A stretch of DNA of 50,776 nt, taken from NCBI GenBank assembly GCA_903829015.1, contig CAIKOJ010000032.1, positions 1 through 50,776 of the forward strand, given 5' to 3'. Position numbers and translations under genes: made by a program. Source of the stretch: an uncultured Bacteroidota bacterium. Its GTDB lineage: Bacteria; Bacteroidota; Bacteroidia; Chitinophagales; Chitinophagaceae. Positions within the stretch are counted from its first letter, which is position 1, and the number at the start of each line of letters is the position of its first letter. Positions 8,196-28,323 of this stretch are shown one piece after another. The notes under the pieces are model-generated. The model saw nothing but the letters and a program-made list of their open reading frames with translations. It ran no database searches and was not told the DNA's origin.

Positions 8196-11100
8196 TTACC
8201 AGATCACTATTTTTTGCCTGAATGAACCGCCTCCCATATTTACTTTTACCAAATAAGTACCGATTGCTGCGTTTCTTAATTCCAGCACTGTTTTGCCTGC
8301 TGTCTTTACAATGCGCTGCTCAACTACTTTGCCCAGTACATCAGAAACCACAATAGCTGCCTCACCACGGAGCTCAGGGATCTCTACAGTAAATGTGCCA
8401 TTAGATGGATTTGGATAAACACTGATACCAGCAACTGATGCAGGCACCGGGTCAACACCTACATTGCAAACAGAATGCAGCCTTATATGCATTATTAACG
8501 TAGCCGTACCCGAGCCGCAGGAATTTGTAACTGTATACTTGATGGTATCTATGCCGCCGGTAACACCTGTTACAAGACCTGTAGCATCTACAGTAGCATT
8601 GCCCAACGCAGATGACCAGGTACCACCGGTAACCAAATCATGCAGGCGAACAGTATCGCCCTGACAAACACTGTCGGTACCTGTGATGGTACCTGCAGAT
8701 GGCGGACCAGCAACTGTAACGTTGTATGTAGCTGCAATCGTTCCGCAAATATTTGTAACGGTATAAGAAATTGTAGCTGTGCCTACTGCTACACCTGTAA
8801 CGGTACCAGATGCCGAACCAACAGTAGCCACTGACGGAGTAGCACTAGACCAAGTACCGCCTGATGCAGCATCTGCGAGTGTGATGCCGGAACCTACACA
8901 AACTGAGGTAGACCCTGATATACTACCTGCATCCGGTGCCGGATTAATTGTAACCGCATAAGTAGCCGAAACTGGACCACATGAATTGGTAACAGTGTAG
9001 CTTATAGTTGCAGTACCAGCGGTAACACCGGTAACAACACCAGTAGACCCTACGGTAGCGTTTGCGCTGCTGCTGCTCCATACACCTCCCGGCGCACCAT
9101 CAGTCAATGTGATCGTGGATCCGGCACAAACACTTGTAGGTCCGGAAATTGTGCCGGCATTGGCCAGTGGATTAACTGTAACAGTTGTTACTGCAGCACA
9201 ACCGGTAGGCAACGTATAGGTAATTGAAACGGTACCTGCCGCCACACCGGTAACAACACCGGAGGTAGTGCCTATGATAGCCAGCGATAGGTCGCTGCTA
9301 GCCCAAGTGCCGCCGCCCGCATCGGTTAATGTAATCGTAGCGCCTACACAAACAGTAGACGGGCCGGCAATAGCCGTTGGTAAAGGATTTACTGTAACAA
9401 CTGCAGTTGCTGTACAACCATTGCCAATGGTATATGTAACAGCAGATGTACCAGCCGCTACACCGTTAACAACACCTGATACAGAACCGATTGTGGCAAC
9501 ACCGGTAACAGCACTTGTCCATGTGCCACCGCCAGTTGCATCAGAAAGTGTGGTTGAAGAACCAACACATACGGTAAGCGTACCGGTAACAGGAGATGGA
9601 GACCCATTAACCGTTACCGGGAATGTTACAAATGTAGCGCAGCCGCCAGTGCCTGTAACAGTATACGTAATATTAGCTGTACCCGGTGCAATACCAGATA
9701 ACACACCAGAAGTAGATATTGTGGCAATACCAGTAGCGCTGCTGTTCCATACCCCACCAGGCGTAGCGTCAGTGAGTGCAGTGGTTACACCTGTACATAC
9801 AGTCGACGAACCAGCAATTGGCGCCACTACAGGCAATGCATTTACTGTAACCGATGTTGTTTTTGAACAGCCCGTAGGCAAAGTATAAACTACCGAAGCA
9901 ACACCTGTAGCAACACCTGTAACTATACCTGAAGTTGAACCGATCGTTGCCGTGGTAGTAGGTGTGCAGCTCCATGTGCCGCCACCAGTGGCATCACTGA
10001 GTGTTGTTGTATTACCCACACAAACATTGGTCACACCTGTTATAGATGCAGGCAGCGGATTTACAGTAACTACGGTAGTTCTTGTGCAACCACCTGCTGC
10101 ATAAGAGATAGTAGTTGTACCCGCAGTAAGGGCATTGAATATGCCAGCGGTTGATATTGTACCTACGGCAGTATTACTACTGCTCCACGTACCACCCGTT
10201 GTGGCATCAGTTAAGGTTGATGTACTGCCCTGGCATAATGAAGTAGTACCGCCAATAACAGCCGGCAAAGGACTTACTGTAATTCCTCTCACTGCAAAAC
10301 AACCTGTTGACAATGTATAGGAGATCACTGAAGGTCCGCCGGCAACACCGGTAACCACACCGGTAGAACCTACCGAGGCATTGGCGTTGCTGCTGCTCCA
10401 TGTGCCACCAGATGTAGCATCGGTGAGTGCAATAGTAGATGCCTCACAAACAACTGAGGCACCAACAATAGCTACAGGATTAGGACTTACAGTTATCGGC
10501 ATTGTTGCAATACAGCTTGTGCCGAGTGAATAAGTTATGGTGGCTACTCCGAGCGATACGCCGGTTACCACACCTGATGCCGAACCAACTGAGGCAATAG
10601 ATGGAGTGCTACTTGACCACGCGCCACCGCCCGGGTCAGATAGTGTTGTTGTGAATCCGAGACAAACACGGTTTGAACCGGAGATAGGGGCAGGGGCTGA
10701 AATAACTGTGACAGTCAGAGTGGCTGTACAGCCTGTTGGTAAGCTATAAGAAATTGTTGTGTTACCCGGTGCCAGAGCACTGAATACACCACCCGTAGAA
10801 ATCGTGCCAACAGCGGTGTTGCTGCTACTCCACGTTCCACCTGAAGTGGCATTTGATAATGTTGTAGAAGAACCAGCACAAAGCGAGCTAAGCCCGGTGA
10901 TAGGAGAAAGTGGGTTTACGGTAAGTGTTGTTGTAACAAAGCAGCCACCGGCTACAGTGTAGGTAATATTAACTGAGCCAGCGCCTACCCCGGTTACTAC
11001 GCCGGTAGAAGAGCCTACTGTAGCACGAGCCGTATTACTGCTGGTCCATGTACCGCCGCTTACACCATCTGTAAGGGTAGTTGTTAAGCCTACGCAAACA

Positions 11101-18090: not shown

Positions 18091-19614
18091 TTAGTGAGCT
18101 ATAACAACACGTCCTGTAGACTTACCGTCTTTTGCATCAATACCGTAGATGTATACACCTTCAGCAAGATTAGCAGTGTTGAAAGAAGCATTACCGTTAG
18201 CAACTACCTGAGAAGCAACCTGCTGTCCGATAGAATTAGTCAGAGTAACAGTAGCACCAGTGTTAGCAGAATTGAAAGAAATATTCAGAACGTTGTTAGC
18301 TGGGTTTGGAGCAACTACTACGTTAGAAATAGTGTTTACGTTTTTAGTATCAAGACCGATACCGATTACGTTACAAGTGTTACATACTGCATGGTATCCG
18401 AAACGTGGGTACTGAGCAACTGCAGGACCAGGAACTGTAGAAGAACCAGAAATAATGTCCCACTGAGGATAGTACTTAGGATCTGGAGCACCCCAACCGC
18501 CTGAAGCGAACATGAAATAACCGCAAGACTGGTTTGTGTTTTCAACAAAAGGCCAAGTTACGTCTGTAAGTGCTGTAGGAGCTGTAGGAGTTGCAGCGAA
18601 AGCAACCTGCATAGCGTAGTTGTTGAATTTGTATCCAGTGATAGCAGTACCGTTAGAATAACGGATAGTATCGCCACCTGGAAGGAAAGTGTTATCACCG
18701 CTCTTGAAAGTAGCTGTCATAGCCATAACGTTGTTAGCTGGAACAGGAACACTGATAGCTGGATCTGTAGAACGACGTGGGTACCAACAAACATCTGCAT
18801 TAGAGTTAGATGTAGAATCTGCACCAGTTAATGGGAATTTGTAAACATAAGAAGCTAACACACCACCACCTGCGTGAGCACCTCTGTTGTTAGCAATATC
18901 ATGATACAGATCTTTGTAGCTGATAGACAGAACACCGTATCCTGCTGGCGGAGAAGTGAAAGACATGTTAGGCATGTCGATTCCTGAACCAGTTCTTGGA
19001 GAAATCACAAAGGAAATAATCAGGGTATCAACAACTGCAGTTTTAGCAGGAGTACCATAATTACGTGTGTACCAACCAGCAACATGAACTGAGTCGATGG
19101 TATAAGCATCAGCATAAGTGATAGCCATCAAACCAGAGAAATCATTTACAGCACCAGAACCCATAGTATTCCAACCGTAGTTAGGAAGAGCAGTACTTGA
19201 GTAAGTAGGATCAAAACCCATAGCCATACTTAAGTTCATAGAACGTGAGTATGGGCTAGTACCGCCAGTGTAACCAATCCATCCAGTAGTATCGTTCCAC
19301 ATAGAGTAGCCATAGTAGTAAGTACCTTTAGACATATAAGCCTGATAAGGTGCTAACATATCGTCGGCGAAGTTGTACCACCTTTGCAGGGCAACTGTAG
19401 TTTTTGCGCCGCTGTGAGGAGCAACTGGTCCAACAACTGGCTGATTGTTTACAGCTGGTGCAGTTACTGGTGCAGGTGCAACAGGATTGATAACAACAGG
19501 CAACGGTGCCTCTGTAGAGGTGTTGAGGCTTTGGGCTTTTGAGCTCACACGGCTTTGCGCCTGAGCGAAACCCGCAACTAAGCAAGCAGAAAAGAGTAAA
19601 AAAGATTTTTTCAT
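18091..19614 (-). CDS. T9SS type A cargo, tandem paralogue C, probably highly expressed
   Basis: The 507-residue protein has the same plan as paralogues A and B: signal peptide (MKKSFLLFSACLVAGFAQAQ), Ala/Pro/Val-rich linker, conserved body and a type A sorting domain ending GRVVIAH. The start at 19614 was preferred to one two codons upstream. By eye its codons lean strongly to GCT, GTT, ACT, TCT, GGT and CGT, unlike the mixed use in A and B, which points to high expression. It has its own strong terminator and upstream region, so it is monocistronic. In sequence it shares some segments with B (such as KSGDNTFLPGGDT) and others with A (such as NNYAMQVAFAATP). Function is unknown. Confidence 0.83.
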   Translation of the reverse strand: MKKSFLLFSACLVAGFAQAQSRVSSKAQSLNTSTEAPLPVVINPVAPAPVTAPAVNNQPVVGPVAPHSGAKTTVALQRWYNFADDMLAPYQAYMSKGTYYYGYSMWNDTTGWIGYTGGTSPYSRSMNLSMAMGFDPTYSSTALPNYGWNTMGSGAVNDFSGLMAITYADAYTIDSVHVAGWYTRNYGTPAKTAVVDTLIISFVISPRTGSGIDMPNMSFTSPPAGYGVLSISYKDLYHDIANNRGAHAGGGVLASYVYKFPLTGADSTSNSNADVCWYPRRSTDPAISVPVPANNVMAMTATFKSGDNTFLPGGDTIRYSNGTAITGYKFNNYAMQVAFAATPTAPTALTDVTWPFVENTNQSCGYFMFASGGWGAPDPKYYPQWDIISGSSTVPGPAVAQYPRFGYHAVCNTCNVIGIGLDTKNVNTISNVVVAPNPANNVLNISFNSANTGATVTLTNSIGQQVASQVVANGNASFNTANLAEGVYIYGIDAKDGKSTGRVVIAH

Positions 19615-19670
19615 AATCACTATTTTTTTTTGGAATTGATAATTAAGTATGATTTTTTTGTTTAAGGCAT

Positions 19671-19678
19671 TAAAGGTA
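19671..19678 (-). promoter_or_regulatory. possible -7 element for paralogue C
   Basis: TACCTTTA on the minus strand is one base off TANNTTTG and equals the element before paralogue B. It lies 57 bases upstream of the start; no -33 TTG at normal spacing was found. Confidence 0.3.
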
Positions 19679-19905
19679 CATTCAAATTGCGGATTTCAGA
19701 TAAAACGATACAGATATTTATATTTATAATTAAATCCTAATCCCGTTTTTTTTGAACGAATAGTAACAATTCAACCCGAGTCAAAATATATCTGCATGAT
19801 AAGTAAACAGCAAATAGTATGCCACAAATCGACTATTTAAATTTTAGGACATTAAAATAACCCGAAATAGAAAATCAACTCCGTTTCACAGAGAAAAAGA
19901 CCGCA

Positions 19906-21333
19906 TTAATGAATAATGTCGATTTTTCCTGTGGTCCGGCTGTTGTTTGAAACCAACTGCCATGAATAAACCCCACCCGGAAACGAACGGGTATCTATTG
20001 TATAAATATCCTTTACAGCCCCGGTAATGTTTCTGGTTGCCACTTCCTGCCCTATCATATTGAACAAAGAAAGCGTACCATCTGACCCACCGGTATTATC
20101 CACCAAAAAGTTTAGTCTGCCTGAGGCCGGGTTAGGATATGCGGTAACAGATGGAGCAGCAACAGAAGGCTGAGCAACTGCAAGTGACGGGGTCTCTGAC
20201 CAGGTAATGTGGAAAGACATTTGTGGTACGGTGAAACCCGGTGGTAAATTGGCACCGGTATTGGCGTAGGCAGATGCTGGTATGAGTACATTGTGGCTGT
20301 TGAACACAAAACCGGTATTGTTGTACCTGATCTGGTTAGTAGCAATGAGGCCATTTTGGTGAGAGCCGGGAAATCCTATACCAATATTGCGCGCACTTTG
20401 TGGAAACCAGTTGGAAGTGCCATTAGGCTCACCTGCAAAAAGCCAGTAGTAGTTGGATGCATAACTTGACGTACCAACAGGATAGGTGACCTGGCTTTTA
20501 AAATAAATGTAGGCTACAAGGTATTTGCCGGGTGGCACAGTAATAGGTGTAGGCAAGTTGAATTTTACATGCCGCAGCGTAAACGGATCGAAAGCTGTGA
20601 GGGGGAAAGCAAAGCGCTGGTGCGCGGTTTTTGTGAGCAGTGGATCAATGCAATTGTCGGTAGCATTAAAATATCTGGCCGTGGCAAAACGTGGTGTGGA
20701 ATCGTGCGTAAAAGGCCGGTACATAGCAGCCGGACTGGATGCGATGAGTGCATAAGCACCGGAGTCAGGCAGACCTCCGTTTTGAGTAACAAGGAATTCA
20801 ACGATAATGCTATCTACGTTTGCGAATGTTGTGTCATATCGATAGTATTCACCCGGAAACCAGAAACTATCGAGCTGATAAGGCAACCTGAAATCAAATG
20901 GTGCCGACACGCGGTAAGACGTATCGAACGCGTGGTAGTAATAAGCGCTGTCTGACGGATCGAAAGACATGCCCATGCCATGAGTAAACATATAGTATGG
21001 TGCATAGTACCCCGAAAGATCATGAATGTTGCTATCGGGAGATATAGCCCAAATATAGGAGTAGCTGTGCGGCAGCGTAGTAGAGGTTGTATCGAACATC
21101 TCATCCCAGAGGTCGTACCAATCGGCATGAGTAGTAGTGCCCGATGTCTGTTTAGCAGCAGTATTGCCGGCACGGTGGTTATTCTTCGGCCCCAGTCCTA
21201 CCATAGGATGGTCTACCTTGATCTTCATTGGCAACGGATCAACTGACTGCTGCACAATGACGTTGTCTTTGAACTGGGCTTTGATTACGGCAGCGGAAAA
21301 AAGGAAACAACACAACAAGAATAGATGCTTCAT
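19906..21333 (-). CDS. T9SS type A cargo, distant relative of the tandem paralogues
   Basis: The 475-residue protein has a signal peptide (MKHLFLLCCFLFSAAVIKAQ), an unrecognised body and a type A sorting domain from VTAYPNPASGRLNFLVDN. The body has features like those of the three paralogues downstream (DWYDLWDEMFD near its start; GMGMSFDPSDSAYYYHAFDT; PFTLRHVKFNLPTPI). This suggests distant common origin, but identity is low. It should be secreted and surface-attached. The gene stands alone, with a promoter-like element upstream, and no clear terminator was found downstream. Confidence 0.75.
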   Translation of the reverse strand: MKHLFLLCCFLFSAAVIKAQFKDNVIVQQSVDPLPMKIKVDHPMVGLGPKNNHRAGNTAAKQTSGTTTHADWYDLWDEMFDTTSTTLPHSYSYIWAISPDSNIHDLSGYYAPYYMFTHGMGMSFDPSDSAYYYHAFDTSYRVSAPFDFRLPYQLDSFWFPGEYYRYDTTFANVDSIIVEFLVTQNGGLPDSGAYALIASSPAAMYRPFTHDSTPRFATARYFNATDNCIDPLLTKTAHQRFAFPLTAFDPFTLRHVKFNLPTPITVPPGKYLVAYIYFKSQVTYPVGTSSYASNYYWLFAGEPNGTSNWFPQSARNIGIGFPGSHQNGLIATNQIRYNNTGFVFNSHNVLIPASAYANTGANLPPGFTVPQMSFHITWSETPSLAVAQPSVAAPSVTAYPNPASGRLNFLVDNTGGSDGTLSLFNMIGQEVATRNITGAVKDIYTIDTRSFPGGVYSWQLVSNNSRTTGKIDIIH

Positions 21334-21378
21334 AACAATTTATTTAAGGGTTTAGGAACACATTAAGTATTGTTCCTT

Positions 21379-21408
21379 TAAAAGTAGTTATATCTAAAAT
21401 TACAGCAA
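21379..21408 (-). promoter_or_regulatory. probable promoter of the 19906-21333 gene
   Basis: On the minus strand TTG (21406-21408) is 19 bases from TACTTTTA (21379-21386), one base off TANNTTTG. A 7-bp inverted repeat (21354-21360 with 21371-21377) would sit at the very 5' end of the transcript. Confidence 0.4.
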
Positions 21409-21432
21409 TTATCTACTCCGGCAAAAAAAACA

Positions 21433-21843
21433 TTAGGGGATAAACCAGGTGGTTGGTACATAGACATTCACAGTACCATTGGATTGAACGGTCTTTTGAG
21501 CACCCCCTTTAACATCGGGCGGATGCCCGCCTTCCATATGATACCCAACTGCCAGGAAATAGTACAGACCGATCTTGAGGTTTGAGAACGTGGCGATGGA
21601 AATACCGCCTATCAGGGTGCAAACTGCTGAATCATCGTAAACATTGCCTGCAGGCGCATCGAGTGTACCATATTTAATATATACAGTGCAGGTATCTACA
21701 TAAGCGCCGTAATACTCAGGAGTAACAAGGATAGTAACATTTCCACCCTTTCCTCCACCGGTAACTTTGGTACTTTCTGAAGATTTGCATTGAAGTGCAA
21801 AACAGCCAATTGCGAACAGTATAAAACAATGCCAGCTTTTCAT
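21433..21843 (-). CDS. small lipoprotein of unknown function
   Basis: The 136-residue protein has a lipoprotein signal (MKSWHCFILFAIGCFALQC, lipid-modified Cys at residue 19) and a Gly/Lys-rich linker. The rest is a compact beta-rich domain (VTILVTPEYYGAYVDTCTVY, then TFSNLKIGLYYFLAVGY) that resembles small Ig- or transthyretin-like folds. The start of its reading is divergent from the metal operon at 21952, with ~110 bases between them. No functional motif or partner was recognised. Confidence 0.7.
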   Translation of the reverse strand: MKSWHCFILFAIGCFALQCKSSESTKVTGGGKGGNVTILVTPEYYGAYVDTCTVYIKYGTLDAPAGNVYDDSAVCTLIGGISIATFSNLKIGLYYFLAVGYHMEGGHPPDVKGGAQKTVQSNGTVNVYVPTTWFIP

Positions 21844-21951
21844 TCATCCGAAATTACAAAATTTCCCTCAACCTGCTTTGACGAAAGTTAAGCATGACCA
21901 AAATCAGTGAAAAAAAGAAGCGTATTGAATAAACAGAGGAAAATTATCAAT

Positions 21952-21959
21952 TATCTTTG
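21952..21959 (+). promoter_or_regulatory. -7 element of the MbnP/MbnH-like operon
   Basis: TATCTTTG matches TANNTTTG exactly. A TTG at 21925-21927 is somewhat far (24 bases). A transcript starting about seven bases downstream would reach the CTG at 21982 with a short leader. Confidence 0.5.
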
Positions 21960-21981
21960 TAACACTTAATTTACAGGCTAT

Positions 21982-22353
21982 CTGAAAAAATATATTGCCA
22001 TACTAGCTTTCGTGTGCTTTCTGCTACAAACCTTTAGTCAGGTTATTATAGTAGCCGAATACTATGCGCAGAAGGATTATATAGCAAAGAAACTTTGTGA
22101 GAACAAAAACAAACCTGAGCTGCATTGCGAAGGTAAATGTTGCCTGAAAAAGAAGCTGGCTAAAGAAGCAAAAGAACAATCGCCCAGCCCAACTAACCAA
22201 AAAAGCGAACAGGTAGTGAACCTGATTGGCCCCGAAGCAAAGTTTGAGATAGTGTACCACACTACGGAATCACCTGCCAAAAAATACTTCAGTTTCAATG
22301 AACTGAAAACCTTTTCTTACCATCATTCGGTGTTCCACCCACCCACAGTATAG
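21982..22353 (+). CDS. small Cys/Lys/His-rich exported protein, probable CTG start
   Basis: The product is 123 residues if read from CTG at 21982, which gives a normal signal peptide (MKKYIAILAFVCFLLQTFSQ). There is no ATG in the open frame, and the only other standard start, GTG at 22012, would cut the signal in half. The mature part holds a cysteine motif, Cys39, Cys49, Cys53 and Cys54 in LCENKNKPELHCEGKCCLKK, then Lys-rich helix and a His-rich tail (FSYHHSVFHPPTV). Similar short proteins with a CxGKC core are familiar from Bacteroidota. It is the first gene of the operon that includes MbnP- and MbnH-like proteins, so soft-metal binding is a reasonable guess, not a shown function. Confidence 0.72.
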   Translation: MKKYIAILAFVCFLLQTFSQVIIVAEYYAQKDYIAKKLCENKNKPELHCEGKCCLKKKLAKEAKEQSPSPTNQKSEQVVNLIGPEAKFEIVYHTTESPAKKYFSFNELKTFSYHHSVFHPPTV

Positions 22354-22460
22354 TGATTTACATTGCTAAGTAACCGCCTGTAACTACGGGGGTATTTCTT
22401 ATTATTCATACAGTGTATTAAGTGCAAATGCACTTACGGCATTGTTGTAAATCATTACAA

Positions 22461-23558
22461 ATGAACTTATACCGTAAAATAATTTTACTAAGTTCCATTT
22501 GCCTTTCTGTACAATGTTACGGGCAAGTGGTTCCAGACACACAGTTACCAAAAATACCAGCTACAGCAGCGGCTTGCTGCAACAATGGCTCCTGCTGCAC
22601 CGGCACAGAAACACCCGCCGGGATCATGACGGATCACATTCACAGCAAAGGCGAATGGATGGTATCGTACACCTATATGAATATGCTGATGAATGGCAAC
22701 CAAACAGGTACCAGCAAAACCAGCGACGCAGAAATATACAATACTTACATGATGGCACCTCAAACCATGACCATGCAAATGCATATGCTGATGCTGATGT
22801 ATGGCATAACAGACAGGCTGACCATTATGGTTATGGGAGGCTATAACTATTGCAGCATGGATATGGATATGCCTGCAATGATAATGAATGGTGCGCCTAT
22901 GCCGGCTTCAACAATGTATTGTACCACATCAGCCTTGGCAGATACGAGGATATACGGTTTATACAATTTCTCTCGGAGGGCGCGGTACAAATTAATAGGG
23001 AGTCTGGCTGTAAGTCTGCCAACCGGATCAGTTACCTGCAAGGGTACTACTATGCTAGGTACAAATGAGCGGATGGCTTACTGCATGCAGTCGGGCACAG
23101 GGTCGGTAAGCGTTATGCCGGGTGTAACCTATGTACGGCGGTACGAAAAGCTGGCGCTGGGTACGGAAGCCTTAGCCGATATAAAACTTAACGACAACAA
23201 AGCCGGGTACAGATTCGGAAATGAATACCGCGAAAATGTGTGGGCAGAATACAGGTTCCTTAATTTTCTGGGAGGAACTCTGCGGGCAGAAGGTGTGCAA
23301 ACAGACAAAATTTCGGGCACTGATAAGGAAATAAGTACGCCCATTAATGAGATGTCTGACCCAACAATGGTCAGCAGCCACTACGGCGCAGCGAGATGCA
23401 ATATTTACGCAGGACTTTCCTTCCACCTGAAAAAGAAATTCACTGAAAGGCTCAGAGTTCAGCTTGAATTTGGGATGCCTGTATATCAAAACCTGAACGG
23501 CCCGCAAATGTCGCAACAGGCGAATATACTTGCTGGCATAATGTATGGATTTAAATAG
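22461..23558 (+). CDS. Met-rich outer-membrane beta-barrel protein
   Basis: The 365-residue protein has a signal peptide (MNLYRKIILLSSICLSVQCYGQ), then a Cys-rich segment (AAACCNNGSCCTG) and a very Met-rich stretch (QTMTMQMHMLMLMYG, SMDMDMPAMIMNGAPMPAS). The rest is a strand-rich barrel (YKLIGSLAVSLPTGSVTCKG, GLSFHLKKKFTERLRVQLEF) resembling transporter-type outer-membrane proteins. The start at 22461 was chosen for the signal peptide; an in-frame ATG lies 13 codons upstream. Met- and Cys-rich segments commonly bind Cu(I) in exported proteins. Its place between the Cys-rich peptide and the MbnP-like lipoprotein suggests a role in metal passage across the outer membrane, by inference. Confidence 0.75.
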   Translation: MNLYRKIILLSSICLSVQCYGQVVPDTQLPKIPATAAACCNNGSCCTGTETPAGIMTDHIHSKGEWMVSYTYMNMLMNGNQTGTSKTSDAEIYNTYMMAPQTMTMQMHMLMLMYGITDRLTIMVMGGYNYCSMDMDMPAMIMNGAPMPASTMYCTTSALADTRIYGLYNFSRRARYKLIGSLAVSLPTGSVTCKGTTMLGTNERMAYCMQSGTGSVSVMPGVTYVRRYEKLALGTEALADIKLNDNKAGYRFGNEYRENVWAEYRFLNFLGGTLRAEGVQTDKISGTDKEISTPINEMSDPTMVSSHYGAARCNIYAGLSFHLKKKFTERLRVQLEFGMPVYQNLNGPQMSQQANILAGIMYGFK

Positions 23559-23632
23559 CGGATATTATTCGCATTTTCTCCAAAGGGCGCATAGCCAAAA
23601 CTATCTCTAACAATTTCAAAAACTTTATAGTC

Positions 23633-24418
23633 ATGACCTCGATCAAATTAAATCAAAGACTGAAAACAACGGCATTTATTGCACTGGTGTCAAGCCTGAT
23701 AATTTTTGTAAGCTCCTGTAAAACTAAAAGCACCAGCTCAACAGGCACGATATACATACATATGCACACCGACATAGACACGAATGAAGTAGCCGACGAC
23801 ACTACATTGTACGATGACGGAACGGGCAGGCACTTCAGCCTATCTACCGGTCAATTCTACATAACCGATATTTCATTGCATAACCTAACCGGAACAACGT
23901 ACAAATTTTCTGGCGTTTATGTTCTGAAAACAATAGGCACCGAACAGTATCTTGTAGGACAGGCGCCAGTAGGCACCTATGATAATGTTTCGTTCACAGT
24001 AGGAGTATCGGCGGCAGACAACAGCATAGCACCATCCAGCTTCGCATCAACGCATGCGCTGAATAATACGGACATGTGGTTTGGCAATACAACAGAAGGG
24101 TATATGTTCGTAAAGGTGGAAGGTAAAGCAGACACTACAGCTGCGCAGACCGGCGCGAATCTAAAGCCATTTGTATACGAGATAGGCGGTGCCACCAATC
24201 TAAGAACCGTAACCATGCCAACTCGATCCGGCAGCATGGTTCCATACATACTAACTTCTGGCGGCACACAATACGTACATATGACTTGCGATTTCAGTAA
24301 GCTTTTGAGTGGAGTAAATTTCAAAACAGACAACAATCTTACCTCGCCAACAGCCAACCCTACCCTGGCGACCACTATCGCCAATAACATTGGCAGCATG
24401 TTTGAGTATGAAGAATAA
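23633..24418 (+). CDS. MbnP-like lipoprotein
   Basis: The 261-residue protein has a lipoprotein signal with the modified Cys at residue 29 (LIIFVSSC). The mature part resembles the MbnP family: IYIHMHTDID near the start, then RHFSLSTGQFYITDISLHN and the NNTDMWFGNTTEGYMFVKVEG core. MbnP is a periplasmic copper protein whose site depends on oxidation of a tryptophan by its partner MbnH. Here Trp149 is the only tryptophan in the protein, which makes it the natural candidate for such a change. The gene overlaps the next one by 11 bases, and an MbnH/MauG-like gene follows after that, supporting the pairing. Family assignment is by memory of its pattern, and copper binding is inferred. Confidence 0.78.
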   Translation: MTSIKLNQRLKTTAFIALVSSLIIFVSSCKTKSTSSTGTIYIHMHTDIDTNEVADDTTLYDDGTGRHFSLSTGQFYITDISLHNLTGTTYKFSGVYVLKTIGTEQYLVGQAPVGTYDNVSFTVGVSAADNSIAPSSFASTHALNNTDMWFGNTTEGYMFVKVEGKADTTAAQTGANLKPFVYEIGGATNLRTVTMPTRSGSMVPYILTSGGTQYVHMTCDFSKLLSGVNFKTDNNLTSPTANPTLATTIANNIGSMFEYEE

Positions 24419-24800
24419 CAAAGATAAAATGAAGCTTGCCGCTGCAATGATATTATTGGTTGCAGCGGCAAGCTCGTGTACCCACGAACCTTTTGTGGCT
24501 GTAGAACCAACAGTGAGTTTCAGAACAGATATTATACCTGTATTTACCACGCGGTGCGCCCTAAACAGTGCCTGCCACTCGGGTGCTGCAAATGCAGGTA
24601 ACAATATTGATCTGGACAGTGCCGCAGCCTACGCCAGCATACAAAGCAAGCACCTGGTGATAACGGATCACCCAACTGCAAGCCTGCTGTATGTTGAAGT
24701 GTCGTCGGGTACAATGCCCAAAGCACCAGCCAGTGCACTGACTGCAGTACAAACAAAGTTGATACTTAACTGGATTGATCAGGGTGCGAAGAATAATTAA
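24408..24800 (+). CDS. small cytochrome-c-like lipoprotein with an unusual heme motif
   Basis: The 130-residue lipoprotein (LLVAAASSC lipobox) starts inside the end of the MbnP-like gene, so translation is probably coupled; an ATG at 24429 would also give a good signal. The body follows the short cytochrome-like domain often seen in Bacteroidota: FRTDIIPVFTTRC, a Cys-His, an xNIDL turn, IQSKH and a final LILNWIDQGAKNN. Where that domain normally has CxxCH or Cx4CH, this gene reads Cys-Ala-Leu-Asn-Ser-Ala-Cys-His, a Cx5CH spacing. It may carry electrons between the diheme enzyme and the MbnP-like protein, or it may not bind heme. Confidence 0.72.
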   Translation: MKNNKDKMKLAAAMILLVAAASSCTHEPFVAVEPTVSFRTDIIPVFTTRCALNSACHSGAANAGNNIDLDSAAAYASIQSKHLVITDHPTASLLYVEVSSGTMPKAPASALTAVQTKLILNWIDQGAKNN

Positions 24801-24863
24801 TTTGCAGCATCATATTTGTTGCATCGTAAATGGCAGATTGAAAATAAAAGTAGTGTTTAATTT

Positions 24864-25841
24864 ATGAAGAAATTATCGGCAATCATTGTATTAATACTTG
24901 CCATCTCCGTGTGTTATTCTTTTGCGCGGCTCAAAAAGCCGGTAAGAGTGTATTCGTTTAAAGGTCAGCCAAAAACAAAGGAGCAGCTGGGAGAGATCTT
25001 GTTTTTTGAAACCAACCTATCTTCTGATGGTACTATAAGTTGTGCTTCCTGCCACATACCGGAATTCGGGTTTGCAGATACAGTTGCTTTTAGCAAGGGT
25101 GTTGACCACAAGGTCGGTAACCGCAACACTCCTTCGTGCGCTAACATGGCAGATCGCCCATACTTTTTCTATGATGGTAGGGCAGCTACTCTTGAAGAAC
25201 AAGTGGGTTTCCCGATCGAGAATAAAGTTGAAATGAATCTACCTCTTGCAGTTGCTGTGAAAAGATTAAAAAGCGACAGCAACTACAATGCCTGGTTCAA
25301 GCGTATTTTCAAAGAAGCACCCAATGAAAAAAATCTTAAGATTGCCATAGCCTCATACGAGCGGACACTTGAAACCTCTTCAACTCCATATGACAGCTAC
25401 ATGGAAAAGGATGATTCAACACTAATAAGCGCTTCAGCAATTAGAGGACGAACGTTATTTCTTGAAAAAGCCAGATGTTTTGATTGTCATTTTTCTCCTG
25501 ATTTTACAGGCGACGAATTCAGAAATATTGGCTTGTTCAACGGTAAAGATATGAACGACTCCGGACGGTACGTTGTGTCTAAAAAAAAATCAGACATCGG
25601 TAAATTCAAAGTACCTGGTCTGAGAAATGTTGCCATAACAGCGCCCTATATGCACAACGGAATGTTTAAAACACTACGTGAAGTAATTGAGTTTTACGAT
25701 AATCCGTACAAAGTAGTTCCAAACCCGATCAATATTGATACATTGCTCGAAAAACCATTGAATCTGTCGGTGCATGAAAAAGACGATCTGGAGGCATTTC
25801 TGCACACACTTACAGACGACCATTTCAGGAAAAAACAATAG
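24864..25841 (+). CDS. diheme cytochrome c peroxidase family enzyme, MbnH/MauG-like
   Basis: The 325-residue exported protein has an N-terminal signal segment and two CXXCH heme sites, CASCH (60-64) and CFDCH (205-209). It has other landmarks of the CcpA/MauG family: LGEILFFETNLSSDGTISC, GNRNTPSCANMADRPYFFYD, then KFKVPGLRNVAITAPYMHNG and a final LEAFLHTL. Members either reduce peroxide (CcpA) or use high-valent hemes to modify a partner protein (MauG on methylamine dehydrogenase, MbnH on MbnP). The MbnP-like gene in the same operon favours the MbnH role. Which one holds cannot be settled from motifs seen here. Confidence 0.85.
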   Translation: MKKLSAIIVLILAISVCYSFARLKKPVRVYSFKGQPKTKEQLGEILFFETNLSSDGTISCASCHIPEFGFADTVAFSKGVDHKVGNRNTPSCANMADRPYFFYDGRAATLEEQVGFPIENKVEMNLPLAVAVKRLKSDSNYNAWFKRIFKEAPNEKNLKIAIASYERTLETSSTPYDSYMEKDDSTLISASAIRGRTLFLEKARCFDCHFSPDFTGDEFRNIGLFNGKDMNDSGRYVVSKKKSDIGKFKVPGLRNVAITAPYMHNGMFKTLREVIEFYDNPYKVVPNPINIDTLLEKPLNLSVHEKDDLEAFLHTLTDDHFRKKQ

Positions 25842-26036
25842 CCAAGCACCTCGTTATTCAAAACGAATATTGAGCATCAGTTGACACACAAATTCCTGAC
25901 TATTTCCCCAGCCTGCGTGAAAAAACCTGCAGGCCTGAAGAAATAAGCAATAACCATTCCGGAATTTTTGCCTTTTTACAATGCAATGTCATTGCACTGC
26001 AAACAAGCAAAACTATCCATCAACAATAGTAAAGCA

Positions 26037-26867
26037 TTAGTTAGCCGATGTTTCCATGCACTTATACAGTTGCACCACCTCTACCGCTTCTTTTACATCG
26101 TGCACCCTCAGTATTTTGGCACCGGCCTGCAGTGCTGCCATATTGAGTGCGGTAGTTCCGTTCAGGGCGTGTTCGGGATCTATGTGCAGTGGTTTACAGA
26201 TCACCGACTTCCTCGATAGGCCCGCCATTACTGGTTTTCCGAGCACAGAAAGAGCTCCTGCCAGTTGCAACAATGAGTAATTGTGTTCAACAGTTTTACC
26301 AAAACCAAAACCGGGATCCACTATAATCTCGTTAATTCCTGCGGACTTGCAGCGGGCTATTGTTTTCTGTAAAAAAACTTTCACCTCTGCAAACACATCG
26401 GTATATGCGGGGGCCACCTGCATAGTTTTAGGGGTTCCCTGCATGTGCATGATTATATAAGGCACACCAAGTGTAGCCACAGTTGGAATCATTTCTTTAT
26501 CATAACTACCGGAAGTCACATCGTTAACGATAGATACGCCTGCATCTACTGCTGCTTTTGCCACAGGAGCGTTGTAAGTATCTACAGATATCCACGTGTC
26601 AGGGAATTGTTTGACTATGGCTTCGATCACCGGCATAATGCGCTTCAATTCTTCATCGGAGGAAACCCAGTCCTGTCCGGGCTTGGTGCTGGCACCACCA
26701 ATATCAAGGATTGAGGCTCCATCTTTTAACATTTTTTCTGCTACACGCAGTAGGGATGATGGGTCACTTGATTGTCCTTTATTGAAAAAGCTATCTGGTG
26801 TTGCATTCAGAATACCCATGACAACTGGCTGTGTAATATCGAGGGACTTATTTTTACTTTGTAGCAT
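26037..26867 (-). CDS. folP: dihydropteroate synthase
   Basis: The 276-residue enzyme joins p-aminobenzoate to dihydropterin pyrophosphate in folate synthesis and is the sulfonamide target. All signatures are visible: VVMGILNATPDSFF near the start, DIGGASTKPG, WISVDTYNAPVAKAA, IVNDVTSG, IIMHMQGTP, DPGFGFGKT, GLSRKS and the terminal RVHDVKEAVE. It is cytoplasmic and of normal length. It is transcribed away from the BT_3928 gene at 27039, a neighbourhood I recall as common in Bacteroidota. No exact -7 element was found for it. Confidence 0.97.
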   Translation of the reverse strand: MLQSKNKSLDITQPVVMGILNATPDSFFNKGQSSDPSSLLRVAEKMLKDGASILDIGGASTKPGQDWVSSDEELKRIMPVIEAIVKQFPDTWISVDTYNAPVAKAAVDAGVSIVNDVTSGSYDKEMIPTVATLGVPYIIMHMQGTPKTMQVAPAYTDVFAEVKVFLQKTIARCKSAGINEIIVDPGFGFGKTVEHNYSLLQLAGALSVLGKPVMAGLSRKSVICKPLHIDPEHALNGTTALNMAALQAGAKILRVHDVKEAVEVVQLYKCMETSAN

Positions 26868-26919
26868 GGTTGGTGATTTTTTCTTATTTGTGAATGAACC
26901 TTTATAATTATCAGGAAAC

Positions 26920-26950
26920 TTTGCGATGTCTTAATGTTCTTGTAAGTTTG
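26920..26950 (+). promoter_or_regulatory. full Bacteroidota promoter for the BT_3928 family gene
   Basis: TTTG (26920-26923) is 19 bases from TAAGTTTG (26943-26950), which matches both the -33 and -7 elements with ideal spacing. The leader would be about 80 bases. It is the best promoter in the window. Confidence 0.65.
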
Positions 26951-27038
26951 AAGTGCAATGTTAGCTTTTGTATTATTTTCAACCAACAGTTAATCATTAT
27001 TTAATTTGATTACAAAATAATAGTTATTTTTTTTAGTT

Positions 27039-28211
27039 ATGAAATACTTTCTTTGGCTACTCAGAATAGTAATTGGCGTATTATTCATTTTCTCCGGTAT
27101 TGTGAAGGCCAACGACCCGTTGGGACTCGTTTACAAAATGAATGAATTTTATGAAGTACTACAGGCAAGCTGCACCGAGCACCATTGGACCATGCTGGCC
27201 AGTTTTATGGGTTTTATGGACCATTACGCGCTTATCTCGTCAATCATTATGATTGCCCTTGAGATCGTTTGTGGCGTGGCCATTCTTGTGGGCTTTTCCT
27301 CACGTTTTTTTACAGCCCTGCTTTTGTTGCTCAATGTATTTTTCCTTTACCTTACGTGGTATGCGCTCTATTCCGGTAAAATAAAAGAATGCGGCTGCTT
27401 TGGTGCTTGTATCAAAATTTCACCGGAGGCTACCTTTTATAAGGATATAGTATTGACGGTGCTGTCTTTAATACTATTTATTTACCGCAAGCGCATTACC
27501 AGCCTTTTTAGCAAACCTATGAGTATGGCAATTTTCATCCTTTCGGTGGTATTCTCGGTGGGCATACAATGGTGGGCACTGGAGCATTTGCCATTCAATG
27601 ATTGTATGCCATACAAGCCGGGCAATAACATACTGGAGAAAATGCAGCCCGGCCCCGATTACCAACCTGCAGTAATAGAGTCTATTTTTATTTATGAAAA
27701 GAACGGTGAGAAGAAAGAGTTTACTATACAGAATTATCCATGGCAGGACAGCACATGGAAATTTGTGGACCGCAAAGACAAAACAGTAAAAGAAGCCACA
27801 GGCGAGCCGGAGATCCATGACTTTATACTTACAGACTCAAACAACGTGGATCAAACCAGAGCGATACTCACTGCAAAAGGGTATACCTTGTTTTGGATGG
27901 TACGCGAGCCTGATAAAGCGCATATGGACAATGTAGAAAAACTGAAAAGCTTGATAGACAAAGCTACACAACTGCATTTGCCTTTTTACGCACTAAGCTC
28001 ATCTAATTATGAAGATGCGAATAAGTTCCTCTTCAAATGGGGTATTAAGCTGCCACCTTACTCGCTTGATGGCACAGCCAGTAAAACTGCTATGCGCAGC
28101 AATCCGGGACTTATGCTTATAAAAGAAGGCACAGTGGTACAAAAATGGAGTTATAAGGATTACCCGTCTGATATAAATATTGTAAACGACAAGGTTGAGT
28201 TTAAAAAATAA
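27039..28211 (+). CDS. BT_3928 family (DoxX-like) membrane protein with C-terminal thioredoxin-like domain
   Basis: The 390-residue protein has a membrane half of about five helices with the DoxX-like start LRIVIGVLFIFSGIVKANDP and a Cys-containing KECGCFGACIKIS loop. A soluble C-terminal half (residues ~205-390: FILTDSNNVDQTRAILTAK, then PYSLDGTASKTAMRSNPGLM) looks like a degenerate thioredoxin fold without a CxxC. Families of this type are linked to quinone or redox chemistry in the inner membrane, but the function is not established. A good promoter precedes it and a strong hairpin follows it. Confidence 0.87.
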   Translation: MKYFLWLLRIVIGVLFIFSGIVKANDPLGLVYKMNEFYEVLQASCTEHHWTMLASFMGFMDHYALISSIIMIALEIVCGVAILVGFSSRFFTALLLLLNVFFLYLTWYALYSGKIKECGCFGACIKISPEATFYKDIVLTVLSLILFIYRKRITSLFSKPMSMAIFILSVVFSVGIQWWALEHLPFNDCMPYKPGNNILEKMQPGPDYQPAVIESIFIYEKNGEKKEFTIQNYPWQDSTWKFVDRKDKTVKEATGEPEIHDFILTDSNNVDQTRAILTAKGYTLFWMVREPDKAHMDNVEKLKSLIDKATQLHLPFYALSSSNYEDANKFLFKWGIKLPPYSLDGTASKTAMRSNPGLMLIKEGTVVQKWSYKDYPSDINIVNDKVEFKK

Positions 28212-28231
28212 TTTTTGCTACCAACATAAAA

Positions 28232-28265
28232 AAGAAAGGAACCGCCACCGTGGTTCCTTTCTTTT
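28232..28265 (+). terminator. terminator after the BT_3928 family gene
   Basis: A perfect 13-bp stem, AAAGAAAGGAACC (28232-28244) with GGTTCCTTTCTTT (28253-28265), has an 8-base loop and runs into more T residues. It lies 20 bases past the stop. Confidence 0.93.
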
Positions 28266-28323
28266 TTTGATCGAACGCAAACACCGCATCTACAACCAAA
28301 CAAATTTTAAACCACTCATTCAT

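Follow-up and report, generated by a model that had tools for sequence, protein, structure and literature searches.

A locus related to the MbnP-MbnH copper systems was analysed in a window of 50,776 nucleotides (nt) from an uncultured member of the Chitinophagaceae (Bacteroidota), whose contig (C32) belongs to a 3.99 Mb assembly. Five open reading frames (ORFs) follow one another on its plus strand, as the original prediction had stated; they lie at 21982/22012-22353, 22461-23558, 23633-24418, 24408-24800 and 24864-25841 and are called here genes 1 to 5. We favour, with appreciable doubt, the reading that genes 1 to 4 are a conserved set, likely one operon, that moves copper(I) across or along the cell envelope without MbnH, and that gene 5, which encodes a diheme protein, is probably a late insertion. 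The observations behind this reading are the co-conservation of the four genes, the loss of a motif in gene 3, the absence of a neighbouring diheme gene from nearly all relatives sampled, and an insertion-like difference between two related loci. Genes 1 to 4 are likely an MbnH-independent variant of the MbnP operons, for copper(I), and the copper role already proposed for the locus is upheld as likely.

Gene 3 (23633-24418, plus strand) encodes an MbnP-family lipoprotein of 261 residues with a lipobox-like VSSC and, as had been noticed earlier, a single Trp (W149, 24077-24079). A profile search against PF20243 returned 94 bits (curated cut-off 27) and the MbnP fold is present, so that the lack of a family match, named beforehand as evidence against the prediction, is not what was found. 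From TIGR04052 (MbnP_like_WxW) the protein obtains 32.4 of the 140 bits required; it has W149-x-G151 instead of WxW, W149 being the first Trp of the former motif and G151 occupying the position of the second, and it has Glu183; the second Trp and the histidine of the HxG motif are gone. A candidate metal site near the N-terminus, H43-x-H45 (23759-23767, plus strand), is conserved in all 29 rows that the protein search gave, counting the query, and its two histidines occur in 18 and 17 of the 19 genus rows. Searched against solved structures, the gene 3 sequence alone gave no match; a profile of the H-x-H type (HxH) gave six (E 0.65 to 2.1, 7l6g being the last), and a profile of other MbnPs matched 7l6g at E 7.1e-05.

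The relation between the motif and the diheme neighbour was followed in a sample of 197 distinct MbnP ORFs flanked on each side by 900 nt or more. Sixteen of 213 ORFs had been dropped for having less than 900 nt on one side, five of them of the HxH type, two of which (L243 and L244) have a diheme gene within 2 kb; the loci were taken from best matches and chosen places, not at random, and the proportions are therefore not class frequencies. A diheme gene adjoins 127 of the 197 MbnPs, and among these 127 the strict WxW is found in at least 104 (a lower bound, because L283 and L284 were counted as lacking WxW yet hold W-T-W) and the HxG histidine in 122. Most of the other 21 diheme-adjacent rows without strict WxW carry a single Trp, within another motif, and retain the histidine; one such kind (L313, L315, L318, L321, L323, L325 and others) carries it in MxWPxxMGGGYHF, so W-x-W is not needed for that neighbourhood. 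Gene 3 groups with 43 others in one clade (support 99) spanning 11 family codes of the class, in which WxW is found in none of the 44 rows and H-x-H near the N-terminus in 40. Judged from these sequences, the clade of gene 3 has lost the motif linked to MbnH. Among the 48 sampled rows with H-x-H, eight keep WxW, seven of these with a diheme neighbour, compared with one of the 40 without WxW. The intermediates L159 and L161, which combine H-x-H and WxW, suggest that H-x-H came first and that the Trp/His motif and MbnH were lost later. At two loci (L153:8869-11452 and L360:7777-9522, both minus strand) two MbnP-type genes lie close together, and in L153 the one at 8869 no longer has the first Trp or the second His of its H-x-H.

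The first four genes are kept together well beyond the window. Among 17 loci of the same genus with a member of the gene 3 clade, genes 1 to 4 occur together in 14; L146 and L150 are cut by contig ends, and only genes 1 and 3 were seen in L154 by the same-genus search. None of the 17 showed a diheme gene; two of them, L150 and L152, stop short of the position where it would lie. Across the 44 rows of the HxH clade, the MbnP is accompanied by gene 1 and by gene 2 in 41 rows each and by gene 4 in 34, and a diheme gene lies within 2 kb in just one, the window itself, the other 43 having none. Nineteen longer stretches that include such operons (L358-L375 and L377; 3.9 to 18 kb) likewise gave no diheme match. 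The locus thus lacks the conserved neighbouring MbnH of an MbnP-MbnH pair, and the view of all five genes as a conserved set fails in the way that the prediction itself had named, since no counterpart of gene 5 was found in the same-genus loci.

Gene 5 (24864-25841, plus strand) encodes an MauG/MbnH-like diheme protein of 325 residues with two CXXCH motifs (C60-C63-H64 and C205-C208-H209) and 165.7 bits to PF03150. Its best NCBIfam match is TIGR04039, MbnH, at 209.9 bits, below the curated cut-off of 362.85; the diheme assignment made earlier is sound, and that to MbnH falls short of its threshold. Tyr278 aligns to Met275 of the Pseudomonas peroxidase (PDB 1eb7), so that in this one respect gene 5 is of the MauG/MbnH type and not a plain CcpA-like enzyme; the residue is found in 91 of 91 clade rows and in 29 of 30 MbnP-adjacent rows (the other has a gap, and the 30 include two copies of the window gene). 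According to passages of PMC6405878, the six-coordinate heme of BthA and related enzymes has a Tyr as its predicted or observed ligand. In a FastTree phylogeny of 126 diheme proteins, gene 5 falls in a clade of 92 rows (Shimodaira-Hasegawa support 99) with no other MbnP-adjacent member, and 28 MbnP-adjacent dihemes lie outside it, a separation favoured by the fact that the gene 5 relatives and the MbnP-adjacent rows came from different searches. On grouping with plain CcpA peroxidases, which would have told against the prediction, the outcome is accordingly mixed: the Tyr sets gene 5 apart from them, but its clade is otherwise without MbnP-adjacent members. The best named records are from Flavipsychrobacter and other Chitinophagaceae, and no MbnP was seen in 80 gene 5 loci from named genomes, as far as those loci extend. 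The closest of 60 relatives searched, L142 of genome G032, has a gene 3 of 76% identity, and its DNA aligns to 19551-24787 and 26049-28267 of the window, with 18 bp in place of the 1.26 kb (24788-26048, plus strand) that contain gene 5. Gene 5 is probably a late insertion outside the conserved unit, although an assembly join at 24788-26048 may account for the difference instead of a real insertion. Two further diheme genes, L167:2848-3903 (minus strand; contig C120 of the window genome) and L178:7434-8534 (plus strand; G032), group among the MbnP-adjacent ones, with no MbnP within the stretch fetched around either.

Gene 2 (22461-23558, plus strand) is predicted from its modelled fold to form an outer-membrane barrel channel, and its 365 residues include 32 Met and 11 Cys, in keeping with the earlier description of the first two gene products as rich in metal ligands. 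Two Met strands stand out in an alignment of 44 rows (the query and 43 picked among 120 listed of 470 homologs). In the first, M103-M113 (22767-22799, plus strand), every second residue is Met, with M103, M105, M109, M111 and M113 present in 44 of 44 rows and M107 in 42; in the second (22827-22871, plus strand), M123, M133 and M135 are invariant, M125 is found in 43 rows and M137 in 41. The parity of these residues on the predicted fold suggests that the Met rows face the lumen. In the model, the channel fold is that of COG4313/PF13557, and the sequence scores 12.6 bits against PF13557, below its cut-off of 22; the two Met strands distinguish gene 2 from the COG4313 channel of Pseudomonas putida (4rl8), from FapF (5o65) and from PF13557. 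The CopB family was not among the Pfam matches of gene 2 (E up to 1) or of the 44 rows (E up to 0.1), and no PcoB/CopB sequence-family match was found. In the passages of PMC9210255 that concern it, the pore of PcoB (7pge) is acidic and read as suited to Cu(II), with Met named as a Cu(I) ligand, whereas the barrel of gene 2 would offer Met.

Gene 4 (24408-24800, plus strand) shares its first 11 nt with the end of gene 3 and encodes a lipoprotein of 130 residues with a lipobox-like SSC. It had been described as cytochrome-like, and the lipoprotein part of that description agrees with the sequence, while the CXXCH heme attachment motif of c-type cytochromes is found in none of 37 distinct gene 4 ORFs; these carry CX4CH in 21 cases and CX5CH in 16. 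The window protein has CX5CH (CALNSACH, 24555-24578, plus strand), as do all 16 aligned genus rows, itself included. Weak matches, below the cut-offs, liken it to the small lipoproteins PSCyt1 (PF07635, 18.2 of 22 bits) and LIC11213 (NF047812, 29.7 of 100 bits), from which it differs by CX4CH or CX5CH in place of CXXCH; a relative in L208 (family f8) passes PF07635 at 23.0. Gene 4 may be a small cytochrome-c-like lipoprotein with a redox role in place of MbnH.

Gene 1 (21982-22353, plus strand) most likely begins at the CTG at 21982, to judge from the comparison of orthologs: the start codon at the matching place is TTG in 13 of 15 readable same-genus orthologs and CTG in two (L142 and L154), a sixteenth, L148, not having been parsed. 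From this start it encodes 123 residues with an N-terminal signal-like segment, the Cys/His motif LCENxxKPxxHCxGKC (here LCENKNKPELHCEGKC) and a C-terminal HPP (HPPTV); the products of genes 1 and 4 are both predicted to be exported. Gene 1 could not be placed in a family, since among 10 relatives scanned none passed an NCBIfam cut-off (nine without a match, one with three weak ones), and its relatives also occur near diheme-linked MbnPs. The candidate Bacteroidota -7 promoter element in front of it, to which the prediction had attributed the transcript, is indeed present as TATCTTTG at 21952-21959 (plus strand), but it is one of 50 matches to TANNTTTG in the window against 49.3 expected, so that on its own the match is at chance level; L142 has the identical octamer at the same distance, 22 nt upstream of the gene 1 start. 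Scans of promoters (12 against 11.2 expected) and terminators (7 against 5.3) were likewise at chance level.

The surroundings of the operon were compared in 35 clade loci, 34 of them with an MbnP (L376 has none). In 11 of the 34, five of these in the genus of the window, a gene no more than 6 kb away encodes a GLxCSxC protein with a signal-like start, and the one member scanned is an HMA protein by Pfam (30.2 bits, cut-off 24.8). Four HMA places are present in the window genome, spread over three other contigs. At L367, L368, L370 and L372, genes of the LMWPc type (21.2 bits, below the cut-off of 23.2), DUF6428 and universal stress genes adjoin the operon. A divergent gene for a small lipoprotein (21433-21843, minus strand) lies near the operon in much of the genus, and its homolog in L161 sits between the barrel and the MbnP of an MbnP-diheme operon. 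Further upstream, 18091-21333 (minus strand) encodes two tandem proteins with relatives at the matching place in L142 and L149; in the nearer, the one scanned, a profile matched a type IX secretion sorting tail. Downstream, 27039-28211 (plus strand) encodes a BT_3928-family protein with MauE and DoxX domain matches (391.7 bits to NF045576) beside a folP-like gene, and belongs to the syntenic flank and not to the operon.

From these features a route for the metal can be sketched. The two Met strands of the gene 2 barrel would line its lumen and pass Cu(I), which would then reach the lipoprotein of gene 3, where the conserved H43-x-H45 together with H216 are candidate ligands replacing the oxidised Trp and the histidine. 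The Cys/His protein of gene 1 might serve as a carrier or chaperone, and gene 4, through its CX4CH or CX5CH, may supply redox chemistry in the place of MbnH. In its most specific form, which we put forward tentatively and regard as rather doubtful, the set would constitute a second, kynurenine-free MbnP system of the Bacteroidota for copper(I), with a Met-lined channel, His-x-His in place of Trp/His, and a mini cytochrome with CX4-5CH heme attachment replacing MbnH.

Several observations weigh against an MbnH-independent unit for copper. W149 is kept in 26 of 29 rows, which is unexpected if it is useless, and D49 and E52 occur in just 14 and 12 of the 19 genus rows. WxW is kept in 24 of 70 MbnPs without an adjacent diheme gene, nine of them with at least 2 kb on both sides, so a diheme enzyme encoded at another place may act on them; two more genes related to gene 5 are present in the window genome, and no HMA gene lies beside the window operon. 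As for the barrel, the even positions 104, 106 and 108, adjacent to the Met row, carry polar residues, unusual for a side that would face the lipid, and seven of 41 clade barrels have less than 5% Met (six of family f8, and L154), while the gene 2 profile was made from Met-rich rows and consequently finds Met-poor barrels less well. An independent-pairs test of diheme against motif yielded 12 pairs, about one of them informative, and has no power; the losses of WxW/His and of MbnH are close to a single event, so that their coupling is not shown statistically. Finally, the HxH-type MbnPs of L243/L382 and L244/L383, which fell outside the 44 rows through the 900-nt flank filter, occur in the same row of genes as a WxW-MbnP and a diheme, which means that a diheme gene can be present in this neighbourhood. 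In these genomes, G415 and G385, the row (L382:3315-9187 and L383:3353-9224, minus strand) consists of gene 1, a Met-rich gene 2 (7.2% Met), the HxH-MbnP, gene 4, a WxW-MbnP, the diheme gene, a second gene 1 relative and another WxW-MbnP. The diheme gene there stands directly behind its own WxW-MbnP, an arrangement that fits two complementary modules but also shows that both kinds can share one cluster.

Other explanations deserve consideration. The original prediction took gene 5 as the MbnH of gene 3, oxidising Trp149 for copper binding, and the two genes are indeed adjacent, on the same strand and 63 nt apart, with TIGR04039 as the best NCBIfam match of gene 5, a Tyr at the bacterial peroxidase Met position and a largely conserved W149. 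Set against this are the large distance of gene 5 from the TIGR04039 cut-off, its clustering with dihemes that do not adjoin MbnP, the syntenic relative without it, the other 43 clade rows with no diheme within 2 kb, and the absence from gene 3 of the second Trp and the HxG histidine, both kept by most diheme-adjacent MbnPs. The proposed Trp149 oxidation step is likewise not supported, and it and the diheme partner are the least supported parts of the prediction. We consider this pairing improbable, and the MbnP-MbnH pair was rejected for the locus on the same-genus loci without diheme, the tree grouping and the absence of gene 5 from L142. Somewhat less improbable, though still unlikely, is a new pairing in progress, in which the inserted gene 5 has taken W149 or gene 4 as its target in this one species: gene 5 is intact, directly downstream and on the same strand, its protein cluster is listed on four contigs, and the HxH cassettes of L382 and L383 are likewise succeeded by a diheme gene, though one that stands behind its own WxW-MbnP. 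Against it, a diheme of the gene 5 clade follows gene 4 in no second lineage, and a chance insertion downstream of the operon is simpler. That the diheme gene was ancestral at the locus and lost in the sampled relatives is formally possible from presence and absence, a diheme gene adjoining so many sampled MbnPs, but gene 5 lies outside the MbnP-adjacent diheme groups and is thus unlikely to be an ancestral partner, which leaves this explanation barely credible.

A different kind of alternative concerns the metal. The unit might handle another soft metal, or confer resistance by exporting metal (silver, mercury or surplus copper), instead of acquiring copper. Any soft metal suits Met, Cys and His ligands, HMA domains are not specific to copper, and the LMWPc-type, DUF6428 and universal stress neighbours at four loci can be read as a stress or resistance context. 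On the other side, none of seven scanned neighbour proteins matched a pump family, the other neighbours not having been identified, and CorA, an analogue by function and not by sequence, binds copper according to passages of PMC3912023. We regard this alternative as a real minority possibility, and retain copper(I) handling by genes 1 to 4 as the preferred reading.

Compared with the MbnP-MbnH pair (PF20243/TIGR04052 and TIGR04039; MbnP of Methylosinus trichosporium, 7l6g), the HxH clade, besides the motif residues missing from gene 3, is without a regular MbnH partner. The CorA-CorB and MopE-SACCP systems of methanotrophs resemble the window locus by analogy, in that a copper protein is encoded beside a diheme enzyme; as far as the relevant passages of PMC3912023 go, the CorA gene is co-transcribed with that of a diheme-type protein, and CorA coordinates a single Cu(I) by two histidines, kynurenine being a second-sphere ligand. 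CorA and MopE were absent from the sequence matches of the HxH profile and from the fold matches listed, an absence that tells nothing about homology, and the kynurenine route is not supported at the window locus. No paper on such an operon was found in the open-access literature searched (MbnP/MbnH, metallo-mystery pair, PF20243, and copper/MauG/kynurenine in Bacteroidetes).

The locus uncouples MbnP from the partner that it usually has. Should members of the His-x-His clade bind copper with no oxidised Trp, a comparison of both kinds of MbnP within a single organism would make the role of MbnH in the standard pair testable; both occur in genome G032, and in G415 and G385 they lie side by side in one gene row. 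The CX4-5CH lipoprotein offers a ready test of non-standard heme attachment, and the Met-array barrel, if it works as proposed, would represent a defined outer-membrane route for Cu(I), unlike the acidic pore of PcoB.

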